Part shown: positions 11,031 through 52,189 of the stretch, one piece after another
How the letters are laid out: every line of letters starts with the position of its first letter
Numbering within the stretch: the first letter of the stretch is position 1
DNA from: Beroe forskalii
Taxonomy: Eukaryota > Ctenophora > Nuda > Beroida > Beroidae
Assembly: GCA_011033025.1 (NCBI GenBank)
Contig: WFMF01000371.1
Location: forward strand, 113,529 to 177,528
Reading direction: 5' to 3'
Length of the DNA stretch: 64,000 nt
Position numbers and translations under genes: made by a program
Notes under the pieces: model-generated
Database searches by the model: none
Seen by the model: only the letters and a program-made list of their open reading frames with translations
What the model was told of the DNA's origin: nothing

Positions 11031-13440
11031 GTAAAAGAATTGTTTAAGTAAAAGAATTGTTTTATTAATCTCCATATTCAATAAATACAATCACACTCAC
11101 ACACAAAAATACGAATGTAAACGCTAGGAAGCTACAGCATACGGCCTGTGTAATGCTAGACAAGCTATTAACAGTGGGTAATAAGATCTCTGTCATTATA
11201 TCATAATATGCATATTTCATAAAGTAAAGTATCTATGTAACTGTAACAGTATTTTCCAATATATTTGATCGAGATATATTAAGTGAACTTAAGCTTCTCA
11301 AATCAGAAATTTTTATGGTAGCTAGTAGTAGTCCTAGCATTGCAGCATTCGTTTTACCCAATTAGATGGGCTTGAGAAAAGCAAGTCAAAAAAACAAATG
11401 GTTCAACAAAAATCTTTCACCACTCTGCTTTCTAAGGCTCCCTTGTTGAACACGAGAGCATCAGTTATGGCATATTGGGTGAGTTATCAACCAAATATAC
11501 CGTTGCACAATGCACAGCTGGTTAAAGCTTTTTGTCTACCTGATATTTACAGGTCACATGTGGCTAATCAGGCTTTCCAAAATTGGTCATATAATCTTGC
11601 TGTCTAAGGACATTAGCAAGCTAAGGGCCAACGTTGACCAATTTTAAGGTACTAGGAATGACCATAAACGAGTAGAACAGAAGTTGTGGCTGGAGAAAGG
11701 ACACAGTGGCGATTTGCTTCATTGTGCCCCTTGGGACCACCTGTCCCACTATTCATGGTCACCAAATTTCAATAAAAAAAGGGTGCTACAAGATAACTTA
11801 ATGAGACAGTTCTTGGATATACTCACGTACCGTGATAAATGTATATCATTAATCAACAGGGATTGCCTGATGACCCATGTATGTTGGACTCTCATTAGAA
11901 CATGAAAGTCACTGACATATAATATTTGGTATTTGGTTTGAAGTTTGAATTTGACGTCAACTCTACAACACGTTTCATTATCATACCAAATAGTGGATGA
12001 TCGAGTATGTTTTCATTAAGTCATTAGCATATAATATGCATAAATATGATATTTTGCAAATTAGCTAATTAGATAGAGATGAAGTTGTGGAATTATTGAA
12101 CACATGGTTTACAACTTACCTATATAAAATACCTTCCATTTTTCATGGTCGATCTGTTGAACCAGTTCACTTTTACAGTGATAATTTTGAAGTTTGGGTA
12201 AAAAATGGCATTAACATTGGTCAGCTGCTTTGCAAGAGAAGTTTCAGTTAGTAGATCCAAGGTTAGAAAATTCGGTAAAGTTTTCATTGCTCCAGCTATC
12301 CATATCCTTAACCTGCCCTTCCAGGAGAGACCTCTTGAGTAAGCTTTTTATCAGGTTTTCGTCACTGTGTAGGCCACATTTCCCAAGATCAAATTTTGCT
12401 GAAGTTATTCCAGAGCCAGGGGGGCTTTGTATGTGAAGTACTTTGAGGGTTCGGGTGTAAGAAAGCGGTTTAGATTCCTTTTAGATAAATTGACCATTTG
12501 ATATAAGGATACAGGTTCTTTACAGTTTACTATTTTCACAATTTCCATGATGCACCTCAAACGATATATATTTTGTACAGTCAATAGATTATGCGTTTTG
12601 AATAATGGTTTAGAAGGTTCTCTAGAGTAAAATTCCTTATCAAGTTTCTGCATTCCATATTCTCGAGCTCGCACACAAGTGCGAAACTTTTCAAGGAAAG
12701 CCTCCTTGTCCCCAAAAATAATACGTAAACATTTCTTCTGTGTTCTAAAAATTGAATCTAGATTACTTAGGGCAACTCCTCCCCAGACAGAAATTGCATA
12801 GCTTAGGTGAGATTCGAAGAGTGAGTGGTAAATTTGCTTGTGAATTTTTACAGGAAGACAGCCTACAATGCGATATAATCTACCACATGCACTTTTTAGT
12901 TTCTTATTGAGCTCTAGAATGTGTGGTTTCCATGACAATTCGTTATCAATAGTAACACCTAAAAATTTCGTTTCATTTACAGCTTTAATTATCTTTCCTT
13001 TTATAGTAAGTTGGGATAAATTGTTTGATTCTACTTTAGTTATCTGTTTACTACGTGGTGAGAAGATCATATGGCAGCATTTCTTAGTATTAATGTGAAG
13101 AAGATTTGATTCCATGTATTGACAGATGTCATTCAGGACCTTATTAGCATTTGAGTAAGCTTCGTCAATAGTGAAGCCAGTCACAAATATGTTAGTGTCA
13201 TCAGCAAACAACACTAGTTTACAATCTTTATTTAAATTAGATATGTCATTTATATACAAAATAAAAAGCAGTGGACCAAGAACTGAACCTTGTGGTACAC
13301 CAAACTTAACAGGAAGAACTTCAGATACTTCATTTAGTGCACTCACGAGCTGCTTTCGATTTTTTAGATAACTCTCGATTAGATTCAGTGCATTGCCCTT
13401 AATGCCATAGTTACTTAATTTGTATAATAGTATAATAGTA
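11031..13440 (-). mobile_element. LINE insertion in the left P2X7 segment
   Basis: The right copy reads straight through CTTGAGTAGCCAAGG at this site. Here the site is split, with AGTAG on both sides (11026-11030 and 13437-13441), which looks like a 5-bp target-site duplication. The insert carries a minus-strand reverse-transcriptase ORF (12405-13451). The remainder to 11031 is presumably its 3' untranslated region, ending in repeated GTAAAAGAATTGTTT units. It is unusually long for a 3' UTR, so a second nested insertion is possible. Confidence 0.75.
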
Positions 13441-13451
13441 GCCAAGGCCAA
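12405..13451 (-). pseudogene. Non-LTR retrotransposon reverse transcriptase, 5'-truncated
   Basis: A 348-codon frame contains the second half of an RT domain: G-V-P-Q-G-S-V-L-G-P-L-L-F (RT motif 4), then LVLFADDTNIF with the catalytic FADD box, then the thumb segment ETKFLGVTIDNELSW and a C-terminal FESHLSYAISVWGG block. The palm's first aspartate region and the whole endonuclease are missing. The final residues continue in another frame below 12420 (a tryptophan-rich LWNNF-like segment), so the end is frameshifted. Same family as 9083-9964. No longer capable of autonomous movement. The general type is jockey/CR1-like, but the clade is not resolved. Confidence 0.85.
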
Positions 13452-13683
13452 TTGACAAGAGCCTCACAGGAAGGTTGGTATGAAAGACTGTTACTGGGAA
13501 TCAATTCAGCATCATTGAAAACCATATCCTAGACACCCTACATGACTTGTTGTGCTAAAATTATTTGTGCATTCTTTCAGAATTTGGGGTAGTCCCAAAA
13601 AGGGTGTGGCAGATAAAATTATTCCCAAGGTATTTGAGGACTGAGTTTGAGAGCATTCAGGATATGTTTGTGTCTAAAATTAA

Positions 13684-17486: not shown

Positions 17487-19342
17487 ATGCAACAAATTTT
17501 CCTACCATTGCATCTTAGGAAAACATACTCTATTGTTAATAACCTGCTTGATAGAAACATAACAAAAGACTGTCATCCAATACATAAGTCAAATGAAGTA
17601 GTAGCAGAAGAAATGAAAGATTTCTTTCATAATAAAGTTGAGAATATATACAAAAGCATAGACAGAAATCTTTGTGAAAATGAGTTTATCCCTGTTAACT
17701 GTGATTTTTCTGGTTCAATGTGGAGTACCTTTGACCCTGTCACAGATTCTGAGCTGACAGATATAATCAATGATCTCAACACTAAGCATTGTGAACTGGA
17801 TCCTATACCTAGCAGTATTTTTGTTGAGTGCATTTCCGAGCTAAAAACCATAGTTCTGTCCATTATCAATGACTCATTGCAAAATGGTATTTTTCCTGAT
17901 GCACTCAAAATGCACTAGTTAGACCATCTATTAAAGATCCTAAAGGCGATTTCAATGACTATAAAAAATTACAGACCAGTAAGCAATCTACCATACATAT
18001 CTAAAATTCTCGAAAAGGCAGTACAAAGACAACTAGAGAAGCACCTTGAAAGAAATGACCTTCATGCGGAATTTCAGAGTGCATATAAGCAAGATCACAG
18101 CTGTGAAACAGCTACACTTGCTGTGTATAATGATCTCCTATGTATCAGTGATATCAAAAGTAAGGTGGTCCTATTACTTCTGGACCTTTCAGCTGCATTT
18201 GATACAATAAATCATGAAAACCTTCTTAAAAAGCTCTTCAATATGTATGGAATTACAGAGTGGTCTTGAAATGGTTCAAATCTTATCTAAACATAAGGTC
18301 CTTTACAGTTACAATTAACCAGTCCAAATCAGATAAATGCTATCTCCTGATTGGAGTCCCACAGGGTTCTATTTTGGGACCAATATTGTTCATCCTTTAT
18401 ACTAAAGAACTTCAATCTATAGCAAAGAGACATGGATTTTCAATTCACTTGTATGCTGATGATACTCAGCTTTACATCAGATTTGATCCACTGTTTAGAG
18501 ATTTTTCAGAACTTGAATCAAGAATAATGAACTGCCTTGATGACATTAAATCATGGATGATGTGTAATCACTTACAACTGAACACTGACAAGACTGAAGC
18601 ACTGGTTGTTAGGGCCAGAAATAATTTTGATTGTCAAGTCATTGACTCAATTGTTGTTAGCCATGATGCTAATGTAACCAATGGAGTCATTAAACCATCT
18701 TCCATTGTCAAAAGCCTTGGTGTATTATTTGATGAGCATCTTACTTTTGAAAATCAAATCAATACTATGATTCAAGCTTGTTATATTACCCTTCGTAACT
18801 TGAGAGCAATTGGATCCAAACTAAGTTTCAGTTTGAAGAAGCAACTTGTACACTGCCTTGTTTTCTCAAAAATGGACTACTGCAATGCACTCTTATATGG
18901 ACAACCAGATTGTCTTATTTCGAGACTTCAGAAAGTACAGAATGCATCAGTAAGATTTCTGTTTGGTAAGAAAATAGGCAAATGGGAACATGTAACACCA
19001 TTCTTGAAAGAAGCACATTTCCTTCCAGTGAGGCTTCGTATTGACTATAAAATTGCTCTACTGGCATACAAATGTATTAACAACATTGCTCCCAAATACC
19101 TCAAAGAACTACTTCATATGAAACCTCAGTCTCAGAGTTTATCATTGAGGAACAATGAAGACTTTTTCATGCTAGACATTCCGAAGGTCCCACAGCTTTA
19201 TAGAACTGAAAGAGCATTTAGTTTTGCTGCTCCAATGGTGTGGAATAAACTGCCTTATGTACTTAGAACATGTGATAATGTTAATGTTTTTAAGAGAAAA
19301 CTGAAGACACATTATTTTGAGATAGCCTTTAAATCCCACTGA
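17487..19342 (+). pseudogene. CR1/L2-like reverse transcriptase, frameshifted
   Basis: Three consecutive frames make one ORF2. 17487-17918 is the linker before RT, with N-D-L-N-T-K-H-C-E-L-D-P-I-P; its first codons are host-site sequence. 17955-18269 is the start of the palm, with NYRPVSNLPYISKILEK, HAEFQSAYKQDHSCETA and the first catalytic aspartate region LLLDLSAAFDTINH. 18260-19342 has GVPQGSILGPILF, the catalytic box LYADDTQLY, a thumb, and a C-terminal part with RIDYKIALLAYKCI and FAAPMVWNKLP. Frame breaks near 17918 and 18260 interrupt it. The break between frames and the empty-site comparison make it a recent but inactive copy. Confidence 0.9.
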
Positions 19343-20146: not shown

Positions 20147-20806
20147 CTAAAAATCATAACAAAAGATTTTCCATGTAGTTTCAAAATCCAAAAGTTCTTT
20201 GTATCCGAGATAATTTCCATTAGGACTGGGATAAAGAACCCTTACTAAGTGAACCACACAGGCAGGTATTTGAGTGAATCGTCTCTCTGTTCCATTTTTG
20301 TAGCCCTGAAGTTGGAGTATATTAAGACATGTTTTGTAGCACCCCATCCTCATTAGTTTACAAAACTCCTCCGTTTCGCTTTTGCTCGGTAATTTCTTCT
20401 GAGTCATACCATAAACCACCAGTTCCAGTAAATCTTCATTGTTAATGACTTTATAAAACATTTCGGTATTTGTGATGCACCTTTGGAAGCCATTCATCTT
20501 GCTAACAACATCGATGTCTCTACAACAACATAATTTACCTTCACTGCTCTGACCATCGCTTGCTGATTTCTTGCACTTTCCGCACTTGCACCCACATTCG
20601 GTTTCTGACAAACTCTCATCCTCTGTGTCGTATGACTTCTCACTCCATAGTTCATCGTCACTGCTGTGACTGCTGACATCAGATCTCATCGGATCGAATG
20701 CACACGTCCAATGGGCCCAATCCATGTCGTCGAAGTCTGGATGTAGTCTGAAGGGAGAGGGGGGAGGTTTTTGGGGTGGCGTCGTGGAGGGCTCTTTGCT
20801 GGACAT
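20147..20806 (-). CDS. P2X7 C-terminal-like (zinc ballast) domain protein, left copy
   Basis: An intact 219-codon single-exon frame. Residues 1-70 are acidic and Ser/Pro-rich (PQKPPPSPF, SSHSSDDELWSEKSYDTED). Residues 72-97 form a cysteine cluster (CGCKCGKCKK, then KLCCC). Residues 98-210 follow the pattern of the intracellular C-terminal domain of vertebrate P2X7 receptors: C-I-T near an N-T-E-M-F, a helical middle, then IPACVVHLVR, YPSPNGNYLGYKE. In P2X7 that domain binds zinc and guanine nucleotide. No channel segment is present, so this is a stand-alone domain protein. Function is unknown; intracellular location is inferred from lack of a signal peptide. The Met follows an AG-ending pyrimidine tract about 20 bp upstream, so a 5' UTR intron is possible. 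It differs from the right copy at roughly 17-20 residues without stops. Confidence 0.8.
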   Translation of the reverse strand: MSSKEPSTTPPQKPPPSPFRLHPDFDDMDWAHWTCAFDPMRSDVSSHSSDDELWSEKSYDTEDESLSETECGCKCGKCKKSASDGQSSEGKLCCCRDIDVVSKMNGFQRCITNTEMFYKVINNEDLLELVVYGMTQKKLPSKSETEEFCKLMRMGCYKTCLNILQLQGYKNGTERRFTQIPACVVHLVRVLYPSPNGNYLGYKELLDFETTWKIFCYDF

Positions 20807-20939
20807 GGTATAATTTCAATGTCTACCTAGAGGAGTAGAGGATAAATTGACAAAAATTAATTAACTTATCATTAACGTAGGTATGAGCCGAGCAGAATTG
20901 CCGAGCAGAAATTTTGCCGAGCAGAAATTTTGAATCATT

Positions 20940-23040: not shown

Positions 23041-23392
23041 CCCCAATATTATTGACACAAATGAGCTATAAATCTTTGTGTCCCGGGATTGGGAAAGACA
23101 GGGCAAAGTTCGAAACTCTTTGCTTCAAGGCCTCAACTTGGTGGGATATATCTTTGTCGTTTTGCAGGACATCATCAAACCCCTTAAAATCTCCACTTCT
23201 CTCTTTCTCTTGAGCGGTCTTTGCTATCTGAATGCCTGGAAGATGTCATCAGTTTACTTTCCATGTCATATCTTTTAATTGTCGGATATCGCCGGATGAA
23301 TAATAACTCATACCTTAGTAATGTATGACTTCAGTAAATGCTAAGTTCTAGATTGTTTGAAGGATCGGATAAAACTTGAAAATGCAAGGTAA

Positions 23393-26300
23393 TCATGAAT
23401 TATTTGTCAAACCCTCGTGAATGAAATTAGCGATCGATTCAAAATCCTCCTCCTTGAGATTTCGTGATGTTAAAGCAGCTGACCCCATTCTGATGCCTCC
23501 CGGACTGAAATAAAAGATCTTAATTGTTGATGATTTAGTGATTTGTTATGGAACTAAACTGTTAATGGAATTATTTTTTACTGTTAATAGCTATCAAGAA
23601 AAAAGTAAAGAAGGTGAATGATGAATTCCAAATAAAACGAATAAAACGAATGTTGTGTACCATTATTATTTATAAACTATCAATCCTATCTACAAATACG
23701 CCCGGAAGCTTACTATCCCAGCAGCTGCCCAGAACTTGGAGCACTTAGTTCTTTAGTTACCTTTCCGCGTCCTTGTGCCCAGGAACAGGATACTTATTGC
23801 CGACTATATCACAAAGATCGAGGGTTTTGTCCACCCGTTCGCCGTCAATTCCCTGAGGCCTGAAGTCTAGTAGCACCGTATGGTTATCAGTTCCTCCCGT
23901 CACTATTTTGTAACCCAACTTCTGTAGAGACTTGCTCAGCGATCTTGCATTAGCTACCACCTGGGATTCATTGCTGTGACTCAGTGAGTTATTTTCTACT
24001 TTTAGACCGAAATTTCTGACAGAAAGTTTATCCACTGTGGATGGGGGTCAACACTTTTTAGTCACAATGTACCAGTTTGCTAGTCTTCAATTAACTCCAG
24101 GAAGTCGCTTACACCTTAACCTAAAATCCGCGTACGACAAACAGACGGTTCAACGTCACCAACTCACTTTTTCAAGATATTATAATGACGTCATCCTACC
24201 CGCCTATTTCTCGCGCGCAATGTTTAGGTACCTGTTGCTGATACTCTCTAAACTCCTTGCTGCTGGACTCTCTCAGAGCTACTGCCACTGCTGCCACTGT
24301 GTTGTTGTGTGGGGCTCCCTGCAAACAGATACGACAGATCACCGGTCTGCTCATTGTACGGCATAATACGGATCTTTATGTTCAAAATCAGGGCCCCTAA
24401 AACTTGGCAATCACTGTGAAGTTCATCTAAACATTGAGGGCTTCACCATGGTTCAGGTTGTCCCGATGGGGGCCAGTATCTGGGAGTTAAGAGAAAACTT
24501 ACACTAATTACCTGAACAGTAGGGACGACCGCGAAGTTGAGTGCGTGCTCTATGTCGTAAGGAACAAGTCCGCGTCCCTGCACCTCCCTGGCTCCCCGTC
24601 TGAAGAAGAGAAGTCCGGCTCTGTAGCCTCTGAGAGTCTTGTTTGCTGTTAACGTGACCACGTCACAGTGGGGAAACGGGGGACTGATCACTCCTGCTGC
24701 TACCAGCCCTGAGGGGGGGTGGGGGGGGAATACTGACGTCAATATGCCTAGAGTATTCAGCACTAGGGGTCATTGAAAACCTATCAAATTAAGTTCGCAT
24801 ACGTTTACTCATCTCATTTTCGGGGTATACATGAACCTATTTTTTCATTTTCCTCATTTTGACATAGTATGTTCTACCTTACATTATTTACACTGCCATT
24901 GTAACTTGAGAATTGACTTGTAATTTGACAAACACTTCGATTCATTTAATTATTCTTAACGTCATTCTAAGACTTGAATTCCGAATGTATGCCAATCACC
25001 CCCTATATGAGCGATATCAGCTACAAGCCACGCCCCAACACTATCAGCTATCTCCCTCATTCGCCTGTAGTCGATCTCTCTGGAGTAACCACTGGCCCCT
25101 GCTATTATCATCTTCGGCTGGTAGCAGAGTGCCTGGAAGACATGTCTGATCTGATGGCGTAGATGAGATAACATTCGGTTTTTATGCGTATTTGTTGACC
25201 TCTGCGTTGGCTAGAATGAAGAATCAGTATTTTCGATATCAAATAGGGTACTTGAAACTGGTAGAATCTACTTGAATGATCTCAAGTCTGATCCTTTCCC
25301 CTCGCAGCCTACCTGTTCTGCAAGTTTTTCATAGTCGATAATACCCGTATCAGGGTCCACACTGTAGGGCATTGTTTCGAAATAAATGCTCACAGCTGAT
25401 ACTTTCTTGTTCTTCGTCATAAAACCGTGTGTAGCGTGACCACCGTCTGAGACCTTCAGTCCCATGATTCTGTCATCAAAAGTTTTATTTGTTGCAGCAA
25501 ACCTGCAAGATAGCTGGGATTACAAAAGTTTTATTTGTTAGTAGCAGACCTGCAAGATAGCGGGGATAGGAGGGTTTTATTTGTTAGCAGCAGACTTGCA
25601 AGATAGCTGGGATTACAAAGAGTTTTATTTGTTAGCAGCAGACCTGCAAGATAGCGGGGATAGGAGGGGTTTTATTTGTTAGCAGCAGACCTGCAAGATA
25701 GCGGGGATAGGAGGGGTTTTATTTGTTAGCAGCAGACCTGCAAGATAGCGGGGATAGCAGAAGTTTATTTGTTAGCAGCAGACCTGAGTTGCAGGATAGA
25801 GGGAATAGGAGGAGTTTTATTTGTTTGATTTGTTGTTTGAAGCGTCCGTTATTCTAAAATTACTTTTGAGGAGGCTATGTCATCAAAGAGTTTGTGCTCT
25901 TTGATCCCTGATAGGCCTTGATTTAGACCCTCAGTTCTCTAGTGCATCCTGGCCTTATTTTAAAATATTTTTAGTAGTTCTTTTAATTTAATTAAGTAAT
26001 TTCCTTAGAGGCTGAGAGCTAACCAGTATAAACGGAGAAGTTAGCAAAAGTTCCGCTGTAACACTCCACATTAACTCCCCATTCCGCCCCATTTCGGGGT
26101 ATATATGAACCTATTTTTTTCATTTTCCTCATTTTGACATAGTATGTTCTACCTTACATTATTTACACTGCCATTGTAACTTGAGAATTGACTTGTAATT
26201 TGACAAACTCTTCGATTTATTTAATTATTCTTAACGTCATTCTAAGATTTGCGAATGTATGCCAATCACCCCCTATATGAGCGATATCAGCAACAAGCCA

Positions 26301-27915
26301 CGCTCCAACACTATCAGCTATCTCCCTCATTCGCCTGTAGTCGATCTCTCTGGAGTAACCACTGGCCCCTGCTATTATCATCTTCGGCTGGTAGCAGAGT
26401 GCCTGGAAGACATGTCTTGGTAATCGCACTATATAGTGGCAATCACATGTATTGATCTGTTGGCGTAGAAGAGATAACATTCGGTTTTTATGCGTATTTG
26501 TTGACCTCTGCGTTGGCTAGAATGAAGAATCAGTATTTTCGATATCGAATAGGATACATGAAACTGGTAGAATCTACTTGAATGATCTCAAGTCTGATCC
26601 TTTCCCCTCGCAGCCTACCTGTTCTTCAAGTTTTTCATAGTCGATAATACCCGTATCAGGGTCCACACTGTAGGGCATTGTTTCGAAATAAATGCTCACA
26701 GCTGATACTTTCTTGTTCTTCGTCATAAAACCGTGTGTAGCGTGACCCCCGTCTGAGACCTTCAGTCCCATGATTCTGTCGTGCGGCTGCAGCAAACCTG
26801 CAAGATAGCTGGGATTACAAAAGTTTTATTTGTTAGTAGCAGACCTGCAAGATAGCGGGGATAGGAGGGTTTTATTTGTTAGCAGCAGACTTGCAAGATA
26901 GCTGGGATTACAAAAGTTTTATTTGTTAGCAGCAGACCTGCAAGATAGCGGGGATAGGAGGGGTTTTATTTGTTAGCAGCAGACCTGCAAGATAGCGGGG
27001 ATAGGAGGGGTTTTATTTGTTAGCAGCAGACCTGCAAGATAGCGGGGATAGCAGAAGTTTATTTGTTAGCAGCAGACCTGAGTTGCAGGATAGAGGGAAT
27101 AGGAGGAGTTTTATTTGTTTGATTTGTTGTTTGAAGCGTCCGTTATTCTAAAATTACTTTTGAGGAGGCTATGTCATCAAAGAGTTTGTGCTCTTTGATC
27201 CCTGATAGGCCTTGATTTAGACCCTCAGTTCTCTAGTGCATCCTGGCCTTATTTTAAAATATTTTTAGTAGTTCTTTTAATTTAATTAAGTAATTTCCTT
27301 AGAGGCTGAGAGCTAACCAGTATAAACGGAGAAGTTAGCAAAAGTTCCGCTGTAACACTCCACATTAACTCCCCATTCCGCCTTGTCGAGACAAAATGCC
27401 TCCAAAGCTCGCTTCATGTACAGTTCCTCCACCGGACTGTAATACTCGATGGAGGTGGGGTTGTCCCTGTGATCCTCCAACCCTTTACTGCAGTTATTTG
27501 TAAAGCAGGATCCTGCCTGACCAGAGTTAACATGCATTTTAGGTTTCAATCTGGGACGTAGCCAAGGGGAAGCGACACAGGCGGTTGCCTCCCCTTTTTG
27601 GACAGACAACGTGAAAATTTTGTTAAGATGGGAGCTTTGAGTCAAGCAAAACTAAAAATCAACAGATTTTAATGTAATTCGCCACCCCCTATTCAAAAAT
27701 CTGGCTGATTTCAATATTGTAACGTGGGAAATGAACTGCAATATCCTGACGTAATAACATGAACAACTGACCGCCTCCATCACAGCTCTGGAAGTGAAGT
27801 TAGCGCTGGCAATGAGGTCCAATCGAGACTTCTGTCGGTATTTCTCCTCCTTTACCAAGCTGTAGAGCTCCGGATCTGCTTGACAGAGTGGCAGTGTTCC
27901 TTGCACTGACTCCAT
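23393..27915 (-). CDS. Serine hydroxymethyltransferase-like protein (probable pseudoenzyme)
   Basis: Eight exons on the minus strand join with GT-AG sites and matching phases: 27915-27772, 27516-27318, 26797-26619, 26402-26270, 24708-24512, 24318-24232, 23960-23761, 23504-23393 (416 codons plus stop). SHMT is a PLP enzyme converting serine and tetrahydrofolate to glycine and methylene-THF. Seen: [15 protein letters not shown] near the N-terminus, [26 protein letters not shown] (PLP aspartate and histidine), [12 protein letters not shown] (Schiff-base Lys kept), [26 protein letters not shown]. Odd: the catalytic Glu of the ASENF motif is Ala (IASANFTS), and the YSEGYPGxRYYGG loop is replaced by [14 protein letters not shown], losing its tyrosines. 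It is shorter than usual SHMT (about 460-480) at both ends. Transfer from serine is unlikely; PLP binding may remain. The final exon may splice on at 23413 instead of ending at 23393. Confidence 0.8.
25000..25502 (-). pseudogene. Duplicate SHMT-like exons 3 and 4 (downstream set)
   Basis: Exon 4 (25132-25000) is intact and nearly the same as 26402-26270, so it could be used as an alternative. Exon 3 (25502-25313) keeps its acceptor and donor, but just after the acceptor GCCGCAC is replaced by 18 bp resembling the minisatellite. This adds 11 bp and shifts the frame, with a TGA soon after. If exon 3 of this set were spliced in, the protein would terminate. A short tail of exon 2 remains at about 26045-26080. 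Confidence 0.75.
25503..25822 (-). repeat. Splice-acceptor minisatellite, array A
   Basis: About seven 45-47 bp units. On the minus strand each has a pyrimidine-rich stretch, CTATCTTGCAG, and then GTCTGCTGCTAAC, the same layout as the genuine exon 3 acceptor (CTATCTTGCAG then GTTTGCTGCAG). The last unit is that acceptor itself. Confidence 0.85.
26798..27112 (-). repeat. Splice-acceptor minisatellite, array B
   Basis: About seven units, same layout as array A, immediately upstream of the intact exon 3 at 26797-26619. Two alternating variants (GGATAGGAGGG and GGATTACAAAAG) are visible. The distal unit is degenerate (GAGTTGCAGGATAGAGGG). Confidence 0.85.
27113..27317 (-). other. Intron 2 remainder of the SHMT-like gene
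   Basis: Non-coding. It is shared with the corresponding parts of sets A (25823-26040) and C (30713-30904), including ATCCCTGATAGGCCTTGATT. Confidence 0.6.
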
Positions 27916-28130
27916 GGTAGATGGCGTTTAAACCTAGATAAGTAACTTAGGGAGCAAGTTTAAAGCGTTAAAAGATGAAGTTTAGAATCAGGCGCTTTTG
28001 AAAATCATGTGATTATCGTAGATAAGTAGGTTGGTAGGTAGTGGAGTTCTTTTAACCATTCATTCGAGGATCCAATCATCGAAAATTCTAAACTCCGCTA
28101 TTAAATCATTAACGCACAAAAAACCTTAGT
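27916..28130 (-). promoter_or_regulatory. Probable 5' flank/promoter of the SHMT-like gene
   Basis: The 200 bp upstream of the start codon are almost identical to the 200 bp upstream of the upstream N-terminal copy (31511-31700). The duplication therefore carried the promoter region as well as exons. No TATA or initiator can be named with confidence. Confidence 0.35.
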
Positions 28131-28321
28131 TTTAGTGAACGCTGAATTTGGTCGTAGTGAACGCACGTTCCAATCATTTTTTAGTGAACGTTTGTGAACG
28201 TTAGTGAACGTTCATAATTGGGGAACAATTTTCTGCTGAAGTATGTTATATAGTAACGCCCAGGAAACAAACTTCATGTTTCAAACGGCTAACTATAGGA
28301 ATAATTTAAGTTTCATAATCT

Positions 28322-29518
28322 CAGTTTGATCCAACTTAGAAAATTCTGCTTTCAGAATTTTGAATTTCGGCCATTTTCACGATTTACAGCCCCTCGAAAA
28401 CCCCCATTTTTGGCTAAAAATGGACTTTTTCGTCTATAATTGGCCACGAGGACCAAAAATAGGGCTGAAAACTGCTTTTTCCCATGTGACTGATTTCCAG
28501 AGAGTGCAATAGAACCAAATAATGATGCATTTTACGCAGAGTTTTCCCCAAGTCCGAGTATGTCAGAGAATTTTCGGAATTTTTATCAGTGTCTGGCCGG
28601 GGGGTCGTCCTAGTAAACTTATTAGTTAACCCATGAAAGTTTCCAGGTCAGTACAGTTTGATCCAACTAAGAAAATGCTGCATTTTGAATTTTGAATTTC
28701 GGCCATTTTCACGATTTATAACAGCCTCTCGAAAACCCCCATTTTTGGCTAAAAATGGACTTTTTCGTCTATAATTGGCCACGAGGACCAAAAATAGGGC
28801 TGAAAACTGCTTTTTCCCATGTGACTGATTTCCAGAGAGTGCAATAGAACCAAATAATGATGCATTTTACGCAGAGTTTTCCCCAAGTCCGAGTATGTCA
28901 GAGAATTTTCTGAATTTTTATCAGTGTCTGGCCGGGGGGTCGTCCTAGTAAACTTATTAGTTAACCCATGAAAGTTTGCAGGTCAGTACAGTTTGATCCA
29001 AGTAAGAAAATGCTGCTTTTAGAATTTTGAATTTCGGCCATTTTCACGATTTACAGCCTCTCGAAAACCCCCATTTTTTGGCTAAAAATGGATTTTTTTT
29101 CGTCTATAATTGGTCACGAGTACCAAAAATAAGGCTGATAACTGCTTTTTCCCATGTGACTGATTTCCAGAGCGTGTAATAGAACCAAATAATGATGCAT
29201 TTTTACGGAGAGTTTTCCCCAAGTCCAAGTATGTCAGAGAATTTTCTGAATTTTGATCAGTGTCTGGCCGGGGGTCGTCCTAATAAACTTATTAGTTAAC
29301 TCATGAAAGTTTGCAGGTCAGTACAGTTTGATCCAACTAAGAAAATGCTGCATTTTGAATTTTGAATTTCGGCCATTTTCACGATTTACAGCCTCTCGAA
29401 AAACCCCATTTTTGGCTAAAAATGGACTTTTTCGTCTATAATTGGCCACGAGGACCAAAAATAAGGCTGAAAACAGCTTTTTCCCATGTGACTGATTTCC
29501 AGAGAGTGCACTAGAACC
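28322..29518. repeat. About 333-bp tandem repeat, 3.6 copies
   Basis: Units begin CAGTTTGATCCAA at 28322, 28654, 28989 and 29324 (spacings 332, 335, 335). Each contains GAATTTTGAATTTCGGCCAT, CTTTTTCGTCTATAATTGG and GTGTCTGGCCGGGG. The fourth copy stops at about 29518. Non-coding. It lies between the two N-terminal SHMT-like copies and separates copy C from the rest of the gene. Confidence 0.9.
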
Positions 29519-30025
29519 ACTTAGAAGGAATTTTGTTCGCACATCTTGCGGCATTTTATGTTTCAAGGCATGTGCGTCACGTGAGTGTTTATTATTCGTG
29601 TTCTTTTCCGTGCCTCTCCATATCTTAGCCAATTTAATCCTATTCCACCCATTTTCTATTATTTTCATATTTCAGCACCGTTTATCTATTCCATTTATCA
29701 CTATTTCCTATTCTTTTTCCAGTTCCATTCTTAAATAGACAGTAACTAGACCGTTCCTTTTACCCTTCCGACTATCACTATCTTAGGGCCGTAACTCTTA
29801 AAAAACAACTCACCCTCTCCATATCTTAGCCAATTTAATCCTATTCCACCCATTTTCTATTATTTTGAGATAACATTCGGTTTTTATGCGTATTTGTTGA
29901 CCTCTGCGTTGGCTAGAATGAAGAATCAGTATTTTCGATATCAAATAGGGTACTTGAAACTGGCAATGTTATTATAGAATCTACTTGAATGATCTCAAGT
30001 CTGATCCTTTCCCCTCGCAGCCTAC
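29519..30025. other. Spacer, partly duplicated
   Basis: 29602-29665 (CTCTCCATATCTTAGCCAAT) recurs at 29815-29868. From about 29869 the sequence matches the exon 3 to 4 intron of the SHMT-like gene (near 25170 and 26470), marking the breakpoint of copy C. Confidence 0.6.
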
Positions 30026-31510
30026 CTGTTCTGCAAGTTTTTCATAGTCGATAATACCCGTATCAGGGTCCACCCTGTAGGGCATTGTTTCGAAATAAAT
30101 GCTCACAGCTGATACTTTCTTGTTCTTCGTCATAAAACCGTGTGTAGCGTGACCACCGTCTGAGACCTTCAGTCCCATGATTCTGTCGTGCGGCTGCAAC
30201 AAACCTGCAAGATAGCTGGGATTACAAAAGTTTTATTTGTTAGCAGCAGACCTGCAAGATAGCGGGGATAGGAGGGGTTTTATTTGTTAGCAGCAGATCT
30301 GCAAGATAGCGGGGATAGGAGGGGTTTTATTTGTTAGCAGCAGACCTGCAAGATAGTGGGGATAGGAGGGGTTTTATTTGTTAGCAGCAGACCTGCAACA
30401 TAGCGGGGATAGGAGGGGTTTTATTTGTAAGTAGCAGACCTGCAAGATAGCGGGAATAGCAGGAGTTTTATTTGTTAGCAGCAGACCTGCAAGATAGCGG
30501 GGATAGGAGGGGTTTTATTTGTTAGCAGCAGATCTGCAAGATAGCGGGGATAGGAGGGGTTTTATTTGTTAGCAGCAGATCTGCAAGATAGCGGGGATAG
30601 GAGGGGTTTTATTTGTTAGCAGCAGACCAGCAAGATAGCGGGGATAGCAGGAGTTTTATTTGTTAGCAGCAGACCTGCAAGATAGCGGGGGTAGCAGGAG
30701 TTTTATTTGTTTTTAATTTTATTTATTTAATATTACTTTTTGAGGAGGCTATGCTATTAAATAAGAGTTTGTGCTCTTTGATCCCTGATAGTCCTTGATA
30801 CCCTCAGTTCTCTAATGCATCCTGTCGGCCTGTCCTTATATTAAACTATTTTAAGTAGTTCTTTCAAGTGAATTAAGTAATTTCCTCGGAGGCTTAGAGC
30901 TAACCAGTATAAACGGAGAAGTTAGCAAAAGTTCCGCTGTAACTCTCCACATTAACTCCCCATTCCGCCTTGTCGAGACGGAATGCCTCCAAAGCTCGCT
31001 TCATGCACAGTTCCTCCACCGGACTGTAATACTCGATAGTGGTTGGGTTGTCCCTGTGATCCTCCAACCCTTTACTGCAGTTATTTGTAAAGCACGATCC
31101 TGCCTGACGAGAGTTAACATGCATTTTAGGTTTCAATCTGGGACGTAGCCAGGGGGAGGCGACACAGGCGGTTGCCTCCCCCTTTCTGGACAGACAACGT
31201 GAAAATTTTGTTAAGATGGGAGCTTTGAGTCAAGCAAAATTAAAAATCAACAGATTTTAATGTAATTCGCCACCCCCTATTCAAAAATCTGGCTGGTTTC
31301 AATATTGTAACGTGGGATAGGTGAAATGAACTGCAATATCCTGACGTAATAACATGAACAACTGACCGCCTCCATCACAGCTCTGGAAGTGAAGTTAGCG
31401 CTGGCAATGAGGTCCAATCGAGACTTCTGTCGGTATTTCTCCTCCTTTACCAAGCTGTAGAGCTCCGGATCTGCTTGACAGAGTGGCAGTGTTCCGTGCA
31501 CTGTCTCCAT
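30026..31510 (-). pseudogene. Truncated upstream copy of the SHMT-like gene (exons 1-3)
   Basis: Exon 1 (31510-31367), exon 2 (31103-30905) and exon 3 (30204-30026) have the same lengths, phases and splice sites as those at 27.9-26.6 kb. They encode the same odd features ([21 protein letters not shown]). No exons 4-8 follow before the 333-bp repeats. Alone it would give about 173 residues. Because it lies upstream in the same orientation, its transcript could splice into exon 4 at 26402 or 25132 and restore a full-length frame, so it may be an alternative 5' end rather than dead. Confidence 0.75.
30205..30712 (-). repeat. Splice-acceptor minisatellite, array C
   Basis: About eleven 47-bp units, the most regular of the three arrays (GATAGCGGGGATAGGAGGGG on the plus strand). 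One unit (near 30630) has TTGCTG in place of TTGCAG, and one near 30394 has CTATGTTGCAG. Confidence 0.85.
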
Positions 31511-36152: not shown

Positions 36153-37420
36153 AACCTACCTACCTCTTGTACCTCTTGTAGGTTCTTGCTGGAAATCCGA
36201 GCTAGACCACCTGTTGTAGACCACCTGTGCTCCAGTCCAGTAGCGAGTTAGAATTGGGTGAGGTATACCCGTGACTGGTGGTTGATCTGGATACGTGCTC
36301 ATGATGTAGGATGTCAATCTCGATTTAAAAGACTCTATGGACGGACTACGGAGCACAGGTGACGCTGTAGGGGAGAATGTTCCAGAGCCTTGGGTCAATC
36401 ACTGCGAATGAATTATCAAACAGGGACTTGGCGTAGGATGGAGCTCTCTTTGGTAGAGGTGGAACACAGCATCGAGTTCCTAGCCGGATGTGTTCGTAGG
36501 ACTTCAGTTGGAGGTCATTGGGAGCGAGAATATTCCAGATCTAGATGATGATGTATCTTTCTCGACGTCTCTGGATTGACATCAAGTTTAGAAACTTTAG
36601 CAGCTCCCAATATATGAGACCTTTGCAGCCGGAGATGTAATGGGTGAAGGCTCTTTGTGGTGATTCAAGCCTTTCGATATCACTCATTAACGTGGGGTTC
36701 CTTACTGGATAGGAGTATGCCAGTCTGCTTCGAACAATGGACTTAAAGACTTAAAGAGGGTAAGCATAGTGTTTTGGGATCTGTCTGAGAAGACGCTAAG
36801 CACCCAATTTGCCATTTTGTTGGCATTTTCGACTGCAGTCTTGACCTGAGTGGACCATTTCATGTCAGGAGTTAGCATAACACCAAGGTCTTTAACACTT
36901 TGTGTCGGGAGGATTTCTTGACCAGATGAAGTGGTGTACTTGGTCCACTGGGATGTGAATGGGAGCTGCTGGAGAAGGTGGCTCTTAGGTGTTCTGTAGG
37001 TGAGGAGCTCGAACTTGTTTTCATGAAGTAGCATGTTATTTGCTACGGACCATTCGATGACTTTTAGGAGGTCGCGTTGGAGGATTGACTGGTCTTCACA
37101 GCAGCTTATAGATTTACTGAGACGTGTGTCGTCAGCAAAGCTTCCGGAAGTTGATCCATCCAGACAGTTTTCAAGGCCATCGATGTACATGAGGAAGAGA
37201 ATTGGACCGAGTACAGAGCCTTGTGGAACGCCACTAAGAACAAGTGAAGAGATGGAATGTACCCCATTTACAGAAACGACTTGTTGTCGGTCAGTCAGAA
37301 ACTGCTGAATCCAAGCAAGTAGCTTTCCCTTAACGCCAAACTTCTGAAGCTTGTGAACAAGGATCTCATGGTCGACTTTGTCGAACGCCTTGGCGAAGTC
37401 AAGATATACCACATCATGTT
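36153..37420 (-). mobile_element. LINE inserted in the MITE
   Basis: Relative to the intact MITE the insertion lies between GAGTGGTTG and ATATCGCCTCTAAG. It is truncated at the 5' side (37420) inside the palm domain and has a short GGTA-rich end at 36153-36180. Same family as the fragment at 1.3 kb (shared PDQPPVTG). Confidence 0.85.
36702..37412 (-). pseudogene. Non-LTR reverse transcriptase, 5'-truncated
   Basis: 236 codons: VYLDFAKAFDKVDHEILV (first catalytic Asp), LSGVPQGSVLGPILFLMYI, then GSFADDTRLSK (catalytic FADD), then VKDLGVMLTPDMKWSTQV. The C-terminal remainder, 36700 down to 36156, is in shifted frames and ends with the PDQPPVTG segment. Inactive by truncation and frameshift. Confidence 0.9.
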
Positions 37421-37552
37421 CATATCGCCTCTAAGTGATGAGCTCATCATTTTGCAAACCTACATACATACTACCTCATCACTACCTCATCATTTCCAAA
37501 ACATACATACATACCCAAGTGATGAGCTCATTTCTGGATGGCCCCTAAACGG

Positions 37553-42222: not shown

Positions 42223-44102
42223 CACTCAGCAGCTCTCCGCTGTCGATAATAACCTGAAATAATTAGGATAATTATAAATGTACTTATGATGTATTTATGA
42301 TTTATTTCGATACATTTACCATGTATGGGAACTCGGCTGGATCAGCTTATTAATTTCATTAATTTCATTAATTTCAGCTTATTAATTTCATACTTACTTC
42401 GAGTAACAAGGGTCAAGGTCAAGACCGAAAAAAGATGAGATCATGTGCTATTTGTAGAGTTAGAATATCCACAAGATTATATTTTCTGTGAAGTATTTGT
42501 TACCTTGGTATCAGCTGTTGAAATCCACTTAAACTGCGTACTGTTTTCAGACTGACTGTGATTGGAGGTATTCTTGGTAAAGTTAACGTATCCCGGAATG
42601 ATCATGGAAACAGCAGCTTTCCTGTGGAAATGAATAAGGTTGGAGATTTGTTAGCGTTAGGAGTTGATATGGGGTGGAGAGGGGATCGGAAAGGGATTAG
42701 GAGAGCTCTTAATAAGGGATGGAGAGGGGATTTGGGAGGGTTGAGAGTGGTTGAGCATGTCTGGAAACTGTACCCCCTGTACTAGCAACGAAGGTATGAG
42801 AAGGGTGGTTCAAAGCTGGTTCAAGGTATAAGTACGACACGAGCGAAACACCTCAAATTTGATTTGATTTGAATTACCCTAGAGATTGAATACAGACCTG
42901 TCCAGAGAGGTTTAGGTTTGCAGATGCAGGGTTGCGGGAGCTTGCCGTCCCAGGACGGAAGAAACATGAGCAAGTTCATGAACACGTCCTTGTCTATGAA
43001 CACGTCCCGTTTTGTCAACGCTCGGCCTGGGAGGAAAAAAGAATAATTTTCGTATCATTGATCGACTGAAATGAACGAAGAGAAATTCGTGCACGAACTG
43101 AATTTAGATTTTTGTCGTGACTTTTAATCAAATTTGTCTTACTATTACTCCATTCTCTAAATTATCCCGCCAGGCGCAACGTACTCGCGTAGAGCGCGTC
43201 CTGGATGACGCCCATAACGGGACGGTTGCTCTGCGGGGTGATTATGTTGACCGGAACCGCCATTATCTCAGACAGCTCGGCCTTAGTTTCCAGACTCTGA
43301 GGCGCGTGCACGTTCATCTCATCTCCGTCGAAATCAGCGTTGTAGGGCGTGGTGACGCTCAGGTTAAATCTGCGGGGAATGGGAATCTTTATTCCTTTGT
43401 TAGTGTTACGGTTATTCCCATGGTAATGCCGTTATCACAGAAAAATGCTGCTCGGCAGCGCTTGAATTTAATAAACTGCCTCAAGTACCACACGAAAACA
43501 TCATAAATATCGCACATAATATAACCCACATATTACAACCGAGCACCATAAACCCACCTGAAGGTTGACCAGGGCAGCACCTTGATCTTGTGACCCATCA
43601 TACTCATCTTGTGGAGGGTGGGTTGCCGGTTGAAGACCACGTAGTCCCCGTCCTGCATGTGTCGCTCCACAACGTAACCCACTTGGAGATGCAGGTCGGA
43701 GGACTTCTTGTTGAACCTGGGGGGTTTAGGGTAGAGTAGATTGGGAGGGTTTGGTGTAGAGTACAATGGGAGAGTTTGGGATAGAGTACAATGAGAGGCT
43801 TTTGGGTAGAGTAGAATGGGAGAGTTTAGGGTGGGGTTGTGTATAATGGGAGGGTTTGCGGAAGAGAAGAGTAGAATTGGAGGCTTTGGGGAACAGAGTA
43901 GAGTGATTATGAGGATTCATTTGATTGCGAAGATCCCGAGTCTATCATTAGTTCCATGTTGTTTTGGTAAGGATGTGAAATAGAGTGGTCTCATGGAATC
44001 TGAAATTCGCGAGTTTTTCATTCATCGCAGCACCGAATGATAGCAATTATTGCACATACTTCAAGTCAATCCTGTCGCCGTTATCTCGGATGATGTATTT
44101 GG
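42223..44102 (-). CDS. RNA polymerase II largest subunit (RPB1)-like, central exons only
   Basis: Six exons on the minus strand: 44102-44060, 43716-43558, 43369-43185, 43026-42898, 42616-42504, 42253-42223. They read [72 protein letters not shown] (catalytic Mg-binding Asp triad), [53 protein letters not shown], and [29 protein letters not shown] and the LMFL..WDGK..QP block favour RPB1 over the Pol I and Pol III subunits. Exon phases match, except that exon 5 needs the internal acceptor AAAG (start 42616) rather than the better CACAG (42621), so that junction is uncertain. Only roughly residues 430-640 of about 1700-1900 are found. The sequence is more diverged than expected for animal RPB1, suggesting a paralogue or decaying duplicate. 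Confidence 0.8.
43740..43920 (-). repeat. TTTGG(G)GTAGAGTA(C/G)AATGGGAG simple repeat
   Basis: Six to eight imperfect 25-35 bp units of GGGTAGAGTAGAATGGGAG type lie within the intron upstream of the second RPB1-like exon. Confidence 0.75.
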
Positions 44103-48469: not shown

Positions 48470-48840
48470 TGCAATCGGCGCTGATCAGCGCTGATCAGCG
48501 CCGATCCACCGCCGATCGGCGCTGATCAGCGCTGATCGGGCCCGATCAGCGCTGATCAGCGACACCGCCGATCAGCGCTGATCAGCGCTGATCAGCGCCG
48601 ATCAGAAATTTCAAAATTCTCATCGGCGGTCGTCGGCGCTGATCGGCGCTGATCAGCGCCGATCGGCGATCAATCAGCGCTGATCAGCGCCGATCAGCGC
48701 TGATGGCCTAAAATCAGCGCTGATCAGCGCTGATCAGCGCCGACCAAAACACCTGCATAAGAGCCTTTGTAAACGCCATTTTTCCTCATCGGCGCTGATC
48801 AGCGCCGATCAGCGCCGATCAGCGCTGATCGCCAACTTGT
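48470..48840. repeat. GATCAGCGCTGATC palindrome array, left
   Basis: Dozens of 8-10 bp units alternate GATCAGCGCT and GATCGGCGCC; the 14-mer GATCAGCGCTGATC is a perfect palindrome. Mirrored at 53055-53465. Confidence 0.95.
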
Positions 48841-48989
48841 TAAATTTGAAATGATATGGACATTTGGGCGTGTTTGCCTCAAAATATAATTCCTGCTGGC
48901 CGTGCAGGTGACATTTACGGCAATTTCTCGCACAGGGCTGTAACATTAACATCAACAATCACATCAACAACATGAACCAGTTTTACGAT

Positions 48990-49660
48990 ACAGTTATGCA
49001 TTGACGTGACAGTAGAACCGTTACAAGTACAACACAGTTTCATTTCCACGACACAGTTACACCGTTACGACACAGTAGAACCGTTACGATTAAGTCACAC
49101 CGTTACGACAGTACGACACAGTAACACCGTTATAACGACACAGTAACATCGTTACTACACAGTAACACCGTTACGACACAGTAACCGCAGTAACACCGTT
49201 ACAACACAGTAAGTGTTACACCGTTGTCAAACATTGTCTGACCCCCTCTTGCCTCCGACGGGGGCGCGCCGTCTAAATTAATGTTCAGACGACGTCTCAC
49301 AATAACACCGTTACGACACAGTAGAACCGTTTCAATATAGTAACACCGTTACGACACAGTAACACTGTAACGACATTGTAACACCGTTACGACACAGTTA
49401 CACCTTTACAGCACAATAACGTCGTTACAACACAATAACACCGTTACGACACAGTAAAGCAACTACGACACAGTCACATCGTTATGACACAGTAACACTA
49501 ATACCGTTACAACACAGTTTCATTCTACGACACAGTAACACTGTTACAACACGCAGTAACACCATCACGACACAGTAACACCCTTACGACACAGTCAGTA
49601 GTCACGCAGTGACGACACAGTAACACCGTTACGACGCAGTTACGCAGTTAGTGTTACGAC
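48990..49660. repeat. (A)CACCGTTACGACACAGTAA array, left
   Basis: About 25 imperfect units of 19-22 bp (GTTACGACACAGTAACACC). Interrupted at 49210-49300 by a GC-rich TTGTCTGACCCCCTC ... GACGACGTC insertion. A small further block lies at 49840-49890. Mirrored at 52190-52870. Confidence 0.9.
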
Positions 49661-50465
49661 ACAGTTACGAAGTTAGGATCGTTCACATATTACGTGATCA
49701 ATTTTTGGTCGGTTTTAACCCCCCCTCCCCTCGTAATCAAGTTTACAGTGGTTTACCTGTTACAATAACATGTAACGTAATAAGTCGGAAACCCCCTCCT
49801 CCTATATAGGTGACAACGTATTATTTTGAACGATTATTTACGACACAGTTACGCAGTTACGACATAGTTACACCGTTACGACACACTCACAGTTGACGGG
49901 CGATGTCCGACCCTATCAGCAATTCTGAGGTCCAGCTGTGAAACGTTGCGGCAAGCGCACGAGGGTAGGATATCATACAACGACGTAAGGCTGTTATTGA
50001 AGGGTTTAGTAACGAGTAAAAGTTACTAAACGTAATATTACACACGAGGGCCGAAGGCCCAAGTGTGTAATATGGCATTGAAAAACCGAGGCCGAAGGCC
50101 GAGGTTTTTTAATGCTGAGTTTAGTAATTTTTACGAGTTATTAAACTGAATTATGCACCGTAATTACTCGAAAAATGGCAATATTTTCAAACACAAGGAA
50201 ATGTTTTAAATCAAGATTTGAAGGTACTGTTTGCCCAACTGTGTGAAATAAATTGTTACGCACTGTTCTACTGCACAATAATAAATTATTATGACCTACA
50301 GTGCGTAATAAATCCGGATATCGGCACTACAGTGCGCAATAATTTATTGCACACGGTACCCTGGTGCCTATAGGGTTTTTGAATACATAGCATAAACACG
50401 CCTGGAAGGTGCATAATACGGTGTTACTGTGTCGTATCGGTGTTATACTGTCATGACAGCGTGGC
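49661..50465. other. Left-arm-only segment with GGCCGAAGGCC hairpins
   Basis: Has no counterpart in the right arm. Contains ATATTACACACGAGGGCCGA with its partner, then AACCGAGGCCGAAGGCCGAG at 50080, which are self-complementary hairpins of the type common elsewhere in this window, and GTGCGTAATAAAT-type repeats near 50300. Probably a nested element. Confidence 0.6.
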
Positions 50466-50469
50466 TAAA

Positions 50470-50885
50470 TCCTATTTATGCAAACCGCCGATTCGGCGCC
50501 GACAAGCGCCGAATCGTCACCTATAGGGGCCTATAGGCGCTTATAATTTTTATTAGGCGCCTATAGGCGGTACCGCTTTTCGGCGCCTATAGGCGCCGAT
50601 AGTTTTCGATCATCGAATTATCGGCGGTCATCGGCGCCTATCGGCACCGAAAAGCGCCTATACACCGCTTTTCGGCGACATCAGCGGTTTTCGACCGCCT
50701 AAAGGCGCCTTTACGGCCATCACCACCTATAAGCCTCTATAGGCGCCTATAAGCGCCTATCGTGATATTTTCCATGATCCACGGCCCGGTACGAGTCTGA
50801 AGTATCGGCCCCTATAGGCGCCGATATTGATCTCTAGCTATCTGTGTTCTTCCTTATTTTTCGGCGCCTATAGGCGCCGATGAAT
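50470..50885. repeat. GGCGCCTATAGGCGCC palindrome array, left
   Basis: Units of CGGCGCCTATAGGCGCCG, a perfect palindrome, with variants such as AAGCGCCTAT. Mirrored in shorter form at 51975-52165. Confidence 0.9.
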
Positions 50886-51019
50886 TAAGGCAGCCCTAAA
50901 CTCCTTAACCCCTTAATGCCCGGTAGGTCTGAACCTGGTCCGATTTTGATGAAATTTTGGATTTTGTGTCTAGATGAGGTCGCATAATTTGAGGTTTTGG
51001 ACCCCCATGGGGCCAGAAA

Positions 51020-51512
51020 TCCTCTGGTTGTATATGCAACCACTAGGGGGAAATCGTTGCCAGTCAAATGGTACATGGTTGCATATGCAACCACTAGGCT
51101 GAACTGGATATATTATGCCTGTATTTGTACAGTGGCCTGGTGGTTGCATATGCAACCAAGTGAAGCTTTAGGCAAATTTATCCATAAGATAATATTATCT
51201 TATTTTTATCAATCAATGTGGAATATAAATATTTGCATAATTTAAGTATGAGCTTATCAATAATTTCCAAATCATTTGGGGCAAATTTCAAGTTTTGATG
51301 TGAAGAGCCCTAGAGAAGGTCATTTTTCAAATTTTTAAACCAACTTTGGCAGGTTATACCAGCTTCATATCAAACTGTAGCCTGGAAATTTCTGTCTCAA
51401 ATGAAAATTTAAACAATTTCCTACAAAACGCAATATGAACCATTTTCCTATCTCAAAATTTGCAAATTTTATGGGCGATTGAACTTGGTGGTTGCATATG
51501 CAACCACTAGGA
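51020..51512. repeat. Four GGTTGCATATGCAACC palindromes
   Basis: The 16-bp perfect palindrome, usually followed by ACTAGG, occurs near 51079, 51141 and 51490, with a one-base variant near 51026. Spacing is irregular (about 50, 60 and 350 bp). Present only on the left of the telomere-like core. Confidence 0.85.
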
Positions 51513-51537
51513 GGCAATAATGGGTTAATCGGGCTAG

Positions 51538-51945
51538 AGTTGGGGTTTGAGTTATGGTTTGGGTTATGGTTTGGGTTAGGGTTTGGGTTTGGGTTAGGGT
51601 CTGGGTTTGGGTTAGAGTTTGGGTTTGAGTTATGGTTTGGGTTAGGGTTTGGATTAGGGTTTGGGTTAGGGTTTGGGTTAGGGTTTGGGTTAGGCTTTGG
51701 GTTAGGCTTTGGGTTAGGCTTTGGGTTAGGCTTTGGGTTAGGCTTTGGGTTTGGGTTAGGGTTTGGGTCAACCCAAAGCCTAACCCAAAGCCTAATCCAA
51801 ATCCTAACAGTAACCCAAACCCTAACCCTAACCCAAACCCTAACCCAAACCCAAGCCCTAACCCAAACCCTAACACAATCCCAAACCCAAACCCTAACCC
51901 AAACCCTAACCCAAACCCTAACCCAAACCCTAACTCTAGCCCAAT
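51538..51945. repeat. Telomere-like repeats in head-to-head orientation
   Basis: From 51538 to about 51768 the plus strand is G-rich: GGGTTAGGGTTTGGG and GGCTTTGGGTTA units. At about 51770 it switches to the complement, TAACCCAAAGCC and CCCTAACCCAAACC, up to about 51945. The unit is close to the animal telomere repeat TTAGGG mixed with TTTGGG. Long frames on both strands here are repeat artefacts. Confidence 0.9.
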
Positions 51946-51974
51946 TTAGAAGTTTAGGACTGCTTTAATTCATT

Positions 51975-52165: not shown

Positions 52166-52189
52166 GCCTGAATGTGTCGTATAACAGCC

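Follow-up and report, generated by a model that had tools for sequence, protein, structure and literature searches.

The window analysed here, a stretch of 64,000 nucleotides from the ctenophore Beroe forskalii (contig WFMF01000371.1, positions 113,529 to 177,528), contains on its minus strand an SHMT-like gene in which the border between intron 2 and exon 3 is multiplied by a minisatellite. This kind of array is already known from amphioxus, where boundary minisatellites have been termed 'mirages'. The ctenophore arrays are probably splice-junction minisatellites of the same type, which are tolerated by the gene and in which the exon-proximal site is used. The mutational route that we infer starts with a short tandem duplication across the intron 2/exon 3 border. 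Such a duplication would be harmless as long as the copy nearest to the exon stays intact and in use; the extra copy would come to lie on the intron side. The resulting tandem pair could have expanded by slippage or unequal exchange, and the spliceosome would select the exon-proximal unit by exon definition, such that the remaining units leave with the intron. Exon-proximal use is most likely in view of the intact products and reading frames, of unit lengths that are mostly not divisible by three, and, by analogy, of reverse transcription PCR (RT-PCR) results from amphioxus. Nor is the process confined to this gene: arrays of like design and unrelated sequence are present in other genes of the same genome, on the donor side as well as on the acceptor side.

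Anatomy of the arrays at exon 3

The array at the SHMT-like exon 3 was confirmed in three clusters. The sequence CTATCTTGCAGGTNTGCTGC gave 23 matches with at most three mismatches, all on the minus strand and all within these clusters; the mean in 100 shuffled sequences was 0.00. Units were delimited from the GT (or AT) that follows one AG through the next AG. Array C (30196..30711) consists of a leading partial unit and 10 complete units of 47 nt each (30674-30205) and ends at exon 3 of a partial gene copy, copy C. Array B (26789..27119) has a leading partial unit and 6 complete units of 46-47 nt (27077-26798) and runs up to exon 3 of gene B, the only full gene. Array A (25494..25825, the upper end being taken from an offset of 1294 bp) is a duplicate of array B with a leading partial unit and 6 complete units of 46-48 nt (25783-25503). 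In each case the upstream side of the leading partial unit is ordinary intron.

Each unit is a complete 3' splice-site module, which comprises a branch-like CTAAC, a pyrimidine tract, CTATCTTGCAG, and about nine bases resembling the start of exon 3; cutting the arrays at each AG yields, for example, the unit GTCTGCTGCTAACAAATAAAACCCCTCCTATCCCCGCTATCTTGCAG. In the common unit, the A of CTAAC lies 35 nt upstream of the final G, and the roughly nine bases after TTGCAG match the beginning of exon 3 (GTTTGCTGC). Of the 20 nt preceding NAG, 15-16 are pyrimidines at the majority of internal positions, as against 13 at the terminal acceptor. The AG is kept at the ends of 9/10 units in array C and of 5/6 units in both B and A, the remainder having TG or AA. 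Including the leading unit, array C offers 11 acceptor positions (10 with AG), and arrays A and B offer 7 each (6 with AG). The proposal of a first-pass annotation that the acceptor of exon 3 has been multiplied by a minisatellite is thus borne out by in-register units in all three arrays. Its unit length of 47 bp holds for all complete units of array C, those of B and A ranging over 46-48 nt, and its figure of up to about eleven competing sites matches the positions in C, 10 of which carry AG.

An assembly-wide search (216 Mb) located the window unit at these three places only (at least 15 matches). A dispersed satellite that landed beside exon 3 was rejected as a candidate on this ground, and because the exon part of the unit matches exon 3. 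Arrays B and C have the same terminal variant, TTTTGTAATCCCAG, and differ in unit number, which fits expansion after a common origin. Among the paralogous copies, the array is present with 10 (C), 6 (B) and 6 (A) complete units.

The SHMT-like gene and its partial duplicates

Joined together, the nine exons of gene B encode an SHMT-like protein of 466 residues free of stops, provided that exon 3 starts after the last unit. Exon 1 (27772..27915) contains the start ATG at 27915, exon 2 (27318..27516) ends with the donor TATACTG|GTTAGC, and exon 3 (26619..26797) follows directly on the terminal acceptor TTGCAG|GTTTGCTGCAGCCGC and continues the open frame of exon 2 in phase 1. Exon 4 lies at 26270..26402, and exons 5-9 (24708-24512, 24318-24232, 23960-23761, 23504-23413 and 23235-23066) occupy 23066..24708 and complete the product without an internal stop. 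Residues 8-462 align with a solved SHMT (E 5e-155), and the exons match PF00464 (SHMT) at C438. The active-site lysine stretch is retained, as are usable splice sites across all nine exons.

Three SHMT-like copies had been assumed in the initial description. There are indeed three arrays, but only gene B is a full gene. Copy A (24821..26088) is a 1.29-kb tandem duplicate of 26095-27382 that lies inside gene B itself, comprises part of exon 2 through exon 4, and is 94.5% identical to its source in an alignment of 1305 columns. Its exon 3 (25313..25502) has a start 11 nt longer than that of B and a broken frame; its exon 4 is at 25000..25132. Copy C consists of exon 1 (31367..31510), exon 2 (30905..31103) and exon 3 (30026..30204) and lacks exons 4-9. 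Between copy C and gene B, a 335-bp tandem satellite occupies 28322-29519 (3.6 copies, 94%).

Among the best 120 of 7951 protein matches, the closest named ctenophore sequences to gene B are from Bolinopsis (62%) and Mnemiopsis (58% according to the search table, 62% when aligned); none of these 120 is a protein of the same species that would reveal the acceptor used, the best being 62% identical to gene B. The conserved SHMT of this genome is located on another contig (C170) and is 80% identical to the Bolinopsis protein and 60% identical to gene B; two further SHMT genes are located on C991. These closest SHMT relatives point to a ctenophore as the source of the genome. The stretch YxxGYPGxRYYGG, which we take to be conserved in SHMT and which is seen in part in the aligned relatives, is kept by these relatives and lost from the gene B protein, where a different run of 18 residues takes its place. 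Gene B thus appears to be a diverged SHMT paralogue whose activity is uncertain because this stretch is missing.

Predicted outcome of splicing to upstream units

All upstream acceptors in B (6, one with AA), C (10, one with TG) and A (6, one with AA) lead to a stop, which is met at codons 134-152 as compared with the junction codon 115, that is, 19-37 codons further on. It had been supposed that units other than the last would usually spoil the product by a shift of frame. The product is spoiled in every case; some choices, however, insert a multiple of three (93, 141, 234, 282 or 423 nt), and each of these meets a stop as well. Since upstream choice always yields an early stop, the use of upstream units could only lower output. 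The sole acceptor of gene B that gives the protein of 466 residues is the last one. Homology and frame therefore agree with the initial assignment of the last unit as the putative working acceptor. The intron 2 predicted in this way is 520 nt long; the array leaves about 200-240 nt of it uncovered.

Junction-spanning arrays at other genes

Junction-spanning arrays unrelated in sequence were found at 11 other loci, some at donors and some at acceptors; the loci belong to the SHMT, CCT, ValRS-like, HSP70-family and ATPase-family genes. Families were assigned by Pfam searches; names below family level, and the precise exon borders in genes other than SHMT, were assigned by eye and are tentative. 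The conserved SHMT gene on C170 contains three such arrays. The acceptor of exon 2 carries a 31-bp array with 6 sites including the working one, the acceptor of exon 5 a 71-bp array with 6 sites, and the donor of exon 4 a 47-bp array of about 36 units as determined with Tandem Repeats Finder (TRF). The latter contains 33 sites of the form TATCAG[TC]G|GTAAGT, 32 of them in addition to the working one. Only exon-proximal choice retains the 466-aa product of this gene: none of the 32 other donors, of the 5 other exon 5 acceptors and of the 5 other exon 2 acceptors does so.

In the SHMT pair on C991, the exon 7 donors carry arrays of 30-bp units, and in one of these genes a second block of the unit lies about 0.9 kb deeper in the intron (L042, 8888-9179). 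CCT-family genes carry an acceptor array of 31 bp x2.9 on C558, a donor array of 37 bp x2.9 on the other strand of the same contig, and an acceptor array of 40 bp x23 with the exon share GGG on C184. The ValRS-like genes on C178 have a donor array of 35 bp x21 (AG|GTGGGCC, exon share 2-3 nt) and an acceptor array of 39 bp x3.6 (exon share ACC). At the HSP70-family gene on C913, a donor array of 34 bp x15 includes about 20 exon nt and GTATGT; the putative exon, which is not covered by a profile match, was placed by a sequence motif. ATPase-family genes contribute donor arrays of 45 bp x6 (about 39 exon nt and GTAGGT) on C203 and of 65 bp x3 on C739, the latter at the limit of the sequence examined, as well as a case of two copies only on C200. 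Donor-side arrays thus occur on C170, C991, C558, C178, C913, C203 and C739, and both types of border are affected in this genome. The unit length is divisible by three in 3/13 arrays, which is about chance level.

Several arrays abut a splice site without spanning it. These are acceptor arrays at C826 6924-7063 and C558 215282-215434, a donor array at C581 557418-557495, and the G-rich repeats after exon 5 of the C170 gene. In the window, a pyrimidine-rich array of 25 bp units (43718-43832) ends at the likely acceptor of an exon of the RNA polymerase large subunit (PF00623); here the tract and branch-like letters are multiplied, the AG is not, and the array only abuts the site.

A separate observation concerns introns 2 and 6 of the C170 SHMT gene (L039), where a copy of the exon edge is present at the opposite end of the intron (ACGGCCCTATTGAAG|GT ... 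ACGGCCCTGCTGAAG|CC, and TTCAGGCCAGGAG|GTGTTCC ... TTCAGGCCAGGAG|GTGTACGG). Intron 2 of this gene is located downstream of its position in the window gene. To judge from these letters, the arrangement looks like intron sliding via junction duplication.

Frequency of junction arrays in a survey of introns

The survey comprised 80 gaps (55 + 6 + 11 + 8), each of them separating one profile match from the next, and excluded the window gene. Most gaps are introns; 80 is an inexact intron count, because one gap (C691 743968-744893) separates two genes and some gaps hold unmatched exons. The contigs fetched out of those listed were 11/11 for PF00118, 4/7 for PF00171, 3/4 for PF00133, 3/7 for PF00012 and 4/4 for PF00006; those left out carried one or two matches. 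Junction-spanning arrays were present in 9/80 gaps, or in 10 if the two-copy case is counted. No junction array was found for ALDH in four contigs (8 gaps), nor in the surveyed contigs C602, C2, C165, C691 and C419. The long gap on C203 contains three arrays, all well inside.

For a comparison with chance, arrays qualified with a unit of at least 20 and at least 2.8 copies, and the expectation treated the founding duplication as a random segment touching the intron. Of the 15 arrays that qualified, nine extend across a junction, compared with 3.57 expected (P about 0.0009). For the first 55 gaps alone, the values are 6/8 and 2.57 (P 0.009), and inclusion of the C991 pair gives 7/10 (P 0.0015). 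Arrays dropped for their unit length or copy number included C991 395228 and 500137, C184 224927 and 225020, C33 10555, C200 42930 and 5378, C514 594041, C602 83294, C203 623438 and C581 557603. Overlapping rows of a single array were removed from the statistic, the second copy on C991 (501856) and its displaced block (503387) were omitted as paralogous, and C184 223809, C178 33266, C739 71050 and C826 6924 were omitted as lying outside gaps. The excess at junctions is suggestive, not definitive.

Relation to known systems

In amphioxus, boundary minisatellites are described for Adh3, the globins BflGb6 and BflGb9, TnC and PGBD5. PMC3087553 states that Adh3 data and the authors' own globin RT-PCR suggest that regular splicing is undisturbed, though many repeats carry AG/GT signals, and PMC3902484 reports likewise for Adh and TnC. 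As in mirages, the units in the window and at the other loci consist of an intron end and the adjoining part of the exon, in register with the real border; many, but not all, window units keep AG/GT signals; and donor and acceptor borders are both affected in this ctenophore. The cases differ in the host, in the involvement of several unrelated gene families within one genome, and in copy numbers of up to about 36 units. They differ also in the data: RT-PCR and haplotypes for the amphioxus mirages, genome sequence for the ctenophore arrays. Within open-licence literature, descriptions of junction minisatellites were found for amphioxus only and none for ctenophores; as far as this literature shows, the novel aspects are the phylum of the host, the occurrence in several gene families of a single genome, and the copy numbers.

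Two further systems are related. Dual-specific splice sites with the sequence AGGT are documented in human genes, including a tandem array in UBC, and introns spliced by such sites are enriched in tandem repeats (PMC10809524). The window arrays similarly repeat AG|GT boundaries in tandem. In UBC, however, coding monomers are spliced in or out in frame, whereas the window units belong to the intron and contain stops; the predicted intron of 520 nt, moreover, corresponds to a non-integer number of units. A potato gene (PMC4974935) gained an intron by a border-crossing duplication, in which the donor came from a former piece of exon. The window duplication also crosses an intron-exon border with branch, tract and AG, and has its GT from the exon piece; unlike the potato gene, the window arrays show no new intron.

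Studies of how splice sites are chosen usually involve one or two competitors. In the present genes, about 6 to more than 30 nearly identical sites lie side by side, and in both genes tested a single choice among them gives the full protein. The arrays are therefore a natural test that could tell exon definition from first-come choice and from repeated splicing. To the amphioxus cases described in open-licence literature, the ctenophore arrays add another, only distantly related animal phylum and several families of housekeeping genes, which bears on the growth and origin of introns. In a wider and considerably more tentative reading, which we regard as possible rather than likely, the splice junction would be a genome-wide hot spot of tandem duplication, dozens of near-identical sites would be ignored by the spliceosome or cleared by repeated splicing, and the arrays would feed the growth, sliding and birth of introns.

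Evaluation of the explanations

Several findings weigh against tolerated mirage-type arrays with exon-proximal splicing. Acceptors were scored with a matrix for which two SHMT genes supplied 15 introns; the matrix is small and serves for ranking only. Upstream positions reached 6.2-13.9 in C and 2.1-11.2 in B, compared with 7.3 for the terminal acceptor; 6/10 upstream acceptors in C and 4/6 in B lie above the terminal one and are thus not weak decoys, so that exon-proximal choice requires an extra cause. The splice letters of the window units (AG 9/10, 5/6 and 5/6) are not clearly decayed, unlike what might be found in an old neutral array; the window arrays may be young. In the survey, 71/80 gaps are without a junction-spanning array of at least 2.8 copies, 6/15 qualifying arrays span no junction, and the excess at junctions is unexplained by random tandem duplication in introns. 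The test itself is rough: profile matches defined the exon edges, part of the data had already been seen when the thresholds were chosen, and arrays within a gene are not independent.

The alternative that survives best, though improbable, is a dual-specific ratchet. Splicing to an upstream unit would rebuild a donor at AG|GT, later hops of at least two units would clear the array up to exon 3, and copy number would be cheap. The GT is kept at 7/10 units in C and at 6/6 in both B and A; with the terminal border included, AG|GT is present at 7/11 borders in C, 6/7 in B and 6/7 in A (19/25 in total). In the same matrix, the upstream AG|GT borders score 7.6 as donors and the terminal ones 8.8 and 6.6, compared with 4.2 for the real donor of intron 2. 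The use of AGGT sites in both directions in the human UBC array (PMC10809524) and the new intron of the potato gene (PMC4974935) also speak for it. However, 3/10 units in C begin with AT, and within a 47-nt unit a distance of only 12 nt separates the branch-like A from the GT. This distance is too short for an intron of one unit, and a one-unit 47-nt intron was accordingly rejected. Moreover, among the six acceptor-side arrays a GT follows the AG in the window array only and is absent from C170 exons 2 and 5, C558, C184 and C178. The other five arrays show that AG|GT cannot be the general reason for tolerance.

A regulatory array is very unlikely. Competing acceptors would divert transcripts into frames with early stops, and the number of units would tune the SHMT-like output via message decay. 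The stops 19-37 codons past the junction and the many upstream acceptors that outscore the terminal one are in line with this. On the other hand, like arrays exist at 11 other gene loci without a common length or sequence, and amphioxus arrays are reported to be neutral to splicing (PMC3087553, PMC3902484). The suggestion of the first-pass annotation that copy number might regulate output has consequently found no support, also considering that 3/13 unit lengths are multiples of three.

It is equally hard to believe that the locus is dead, being a decaying paralogue or in part an assembly product, with an array irrelevant to any message. Copy A has a broken frame, copy C lacks exons 4-9, the YxxGYPGxRYYGG stretch is missing from the gene B protein, and a conserved SHMT exists on C170. 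In exons 1-3, B and C differ at 14/522 nt, with 8 amino-acid-changing and 5 silent codons; this is little sign of constraint, although C alone may drift. Against a dead locus stand the frame of gene B, which stays open across all nine exons, its usable splice sites and its active-site lysine stretch, and the presence of arrays in conserved genes on other contigs.

Two other candidates were rejected outright: a shared introner-like element, because the arrays differ in sequence and each has its own exon edge, and frame-preserving alternative exons, because all alternatives tested contain stops and only 3/13 unit lengths are divisible by three.

Other features of the window

The region 48474-53449 contains arrays that look mirrored about position 51770, with GTTAGGGTTTGG/AACCCAAACCCT at the centre. 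A 19-bp array is found at 49.0-49.9 and at 52.2-52.8 kb, and ATCAGCGCTG at 48.5 and 53.1 kb, which suggests a large inverted structure. Two open reading frames (ORFs) at 20150-20815 (minus strand) and 58682-59347 (plus strand) have equal length and opposite orientation and are nearly identical over the 70 residues compared; the former matches the P2RX7_C domain. Reverse transcriptase domains are encoded by three ORFs of the window, at 12408-13463, 18230-19339 and 36705-37430.

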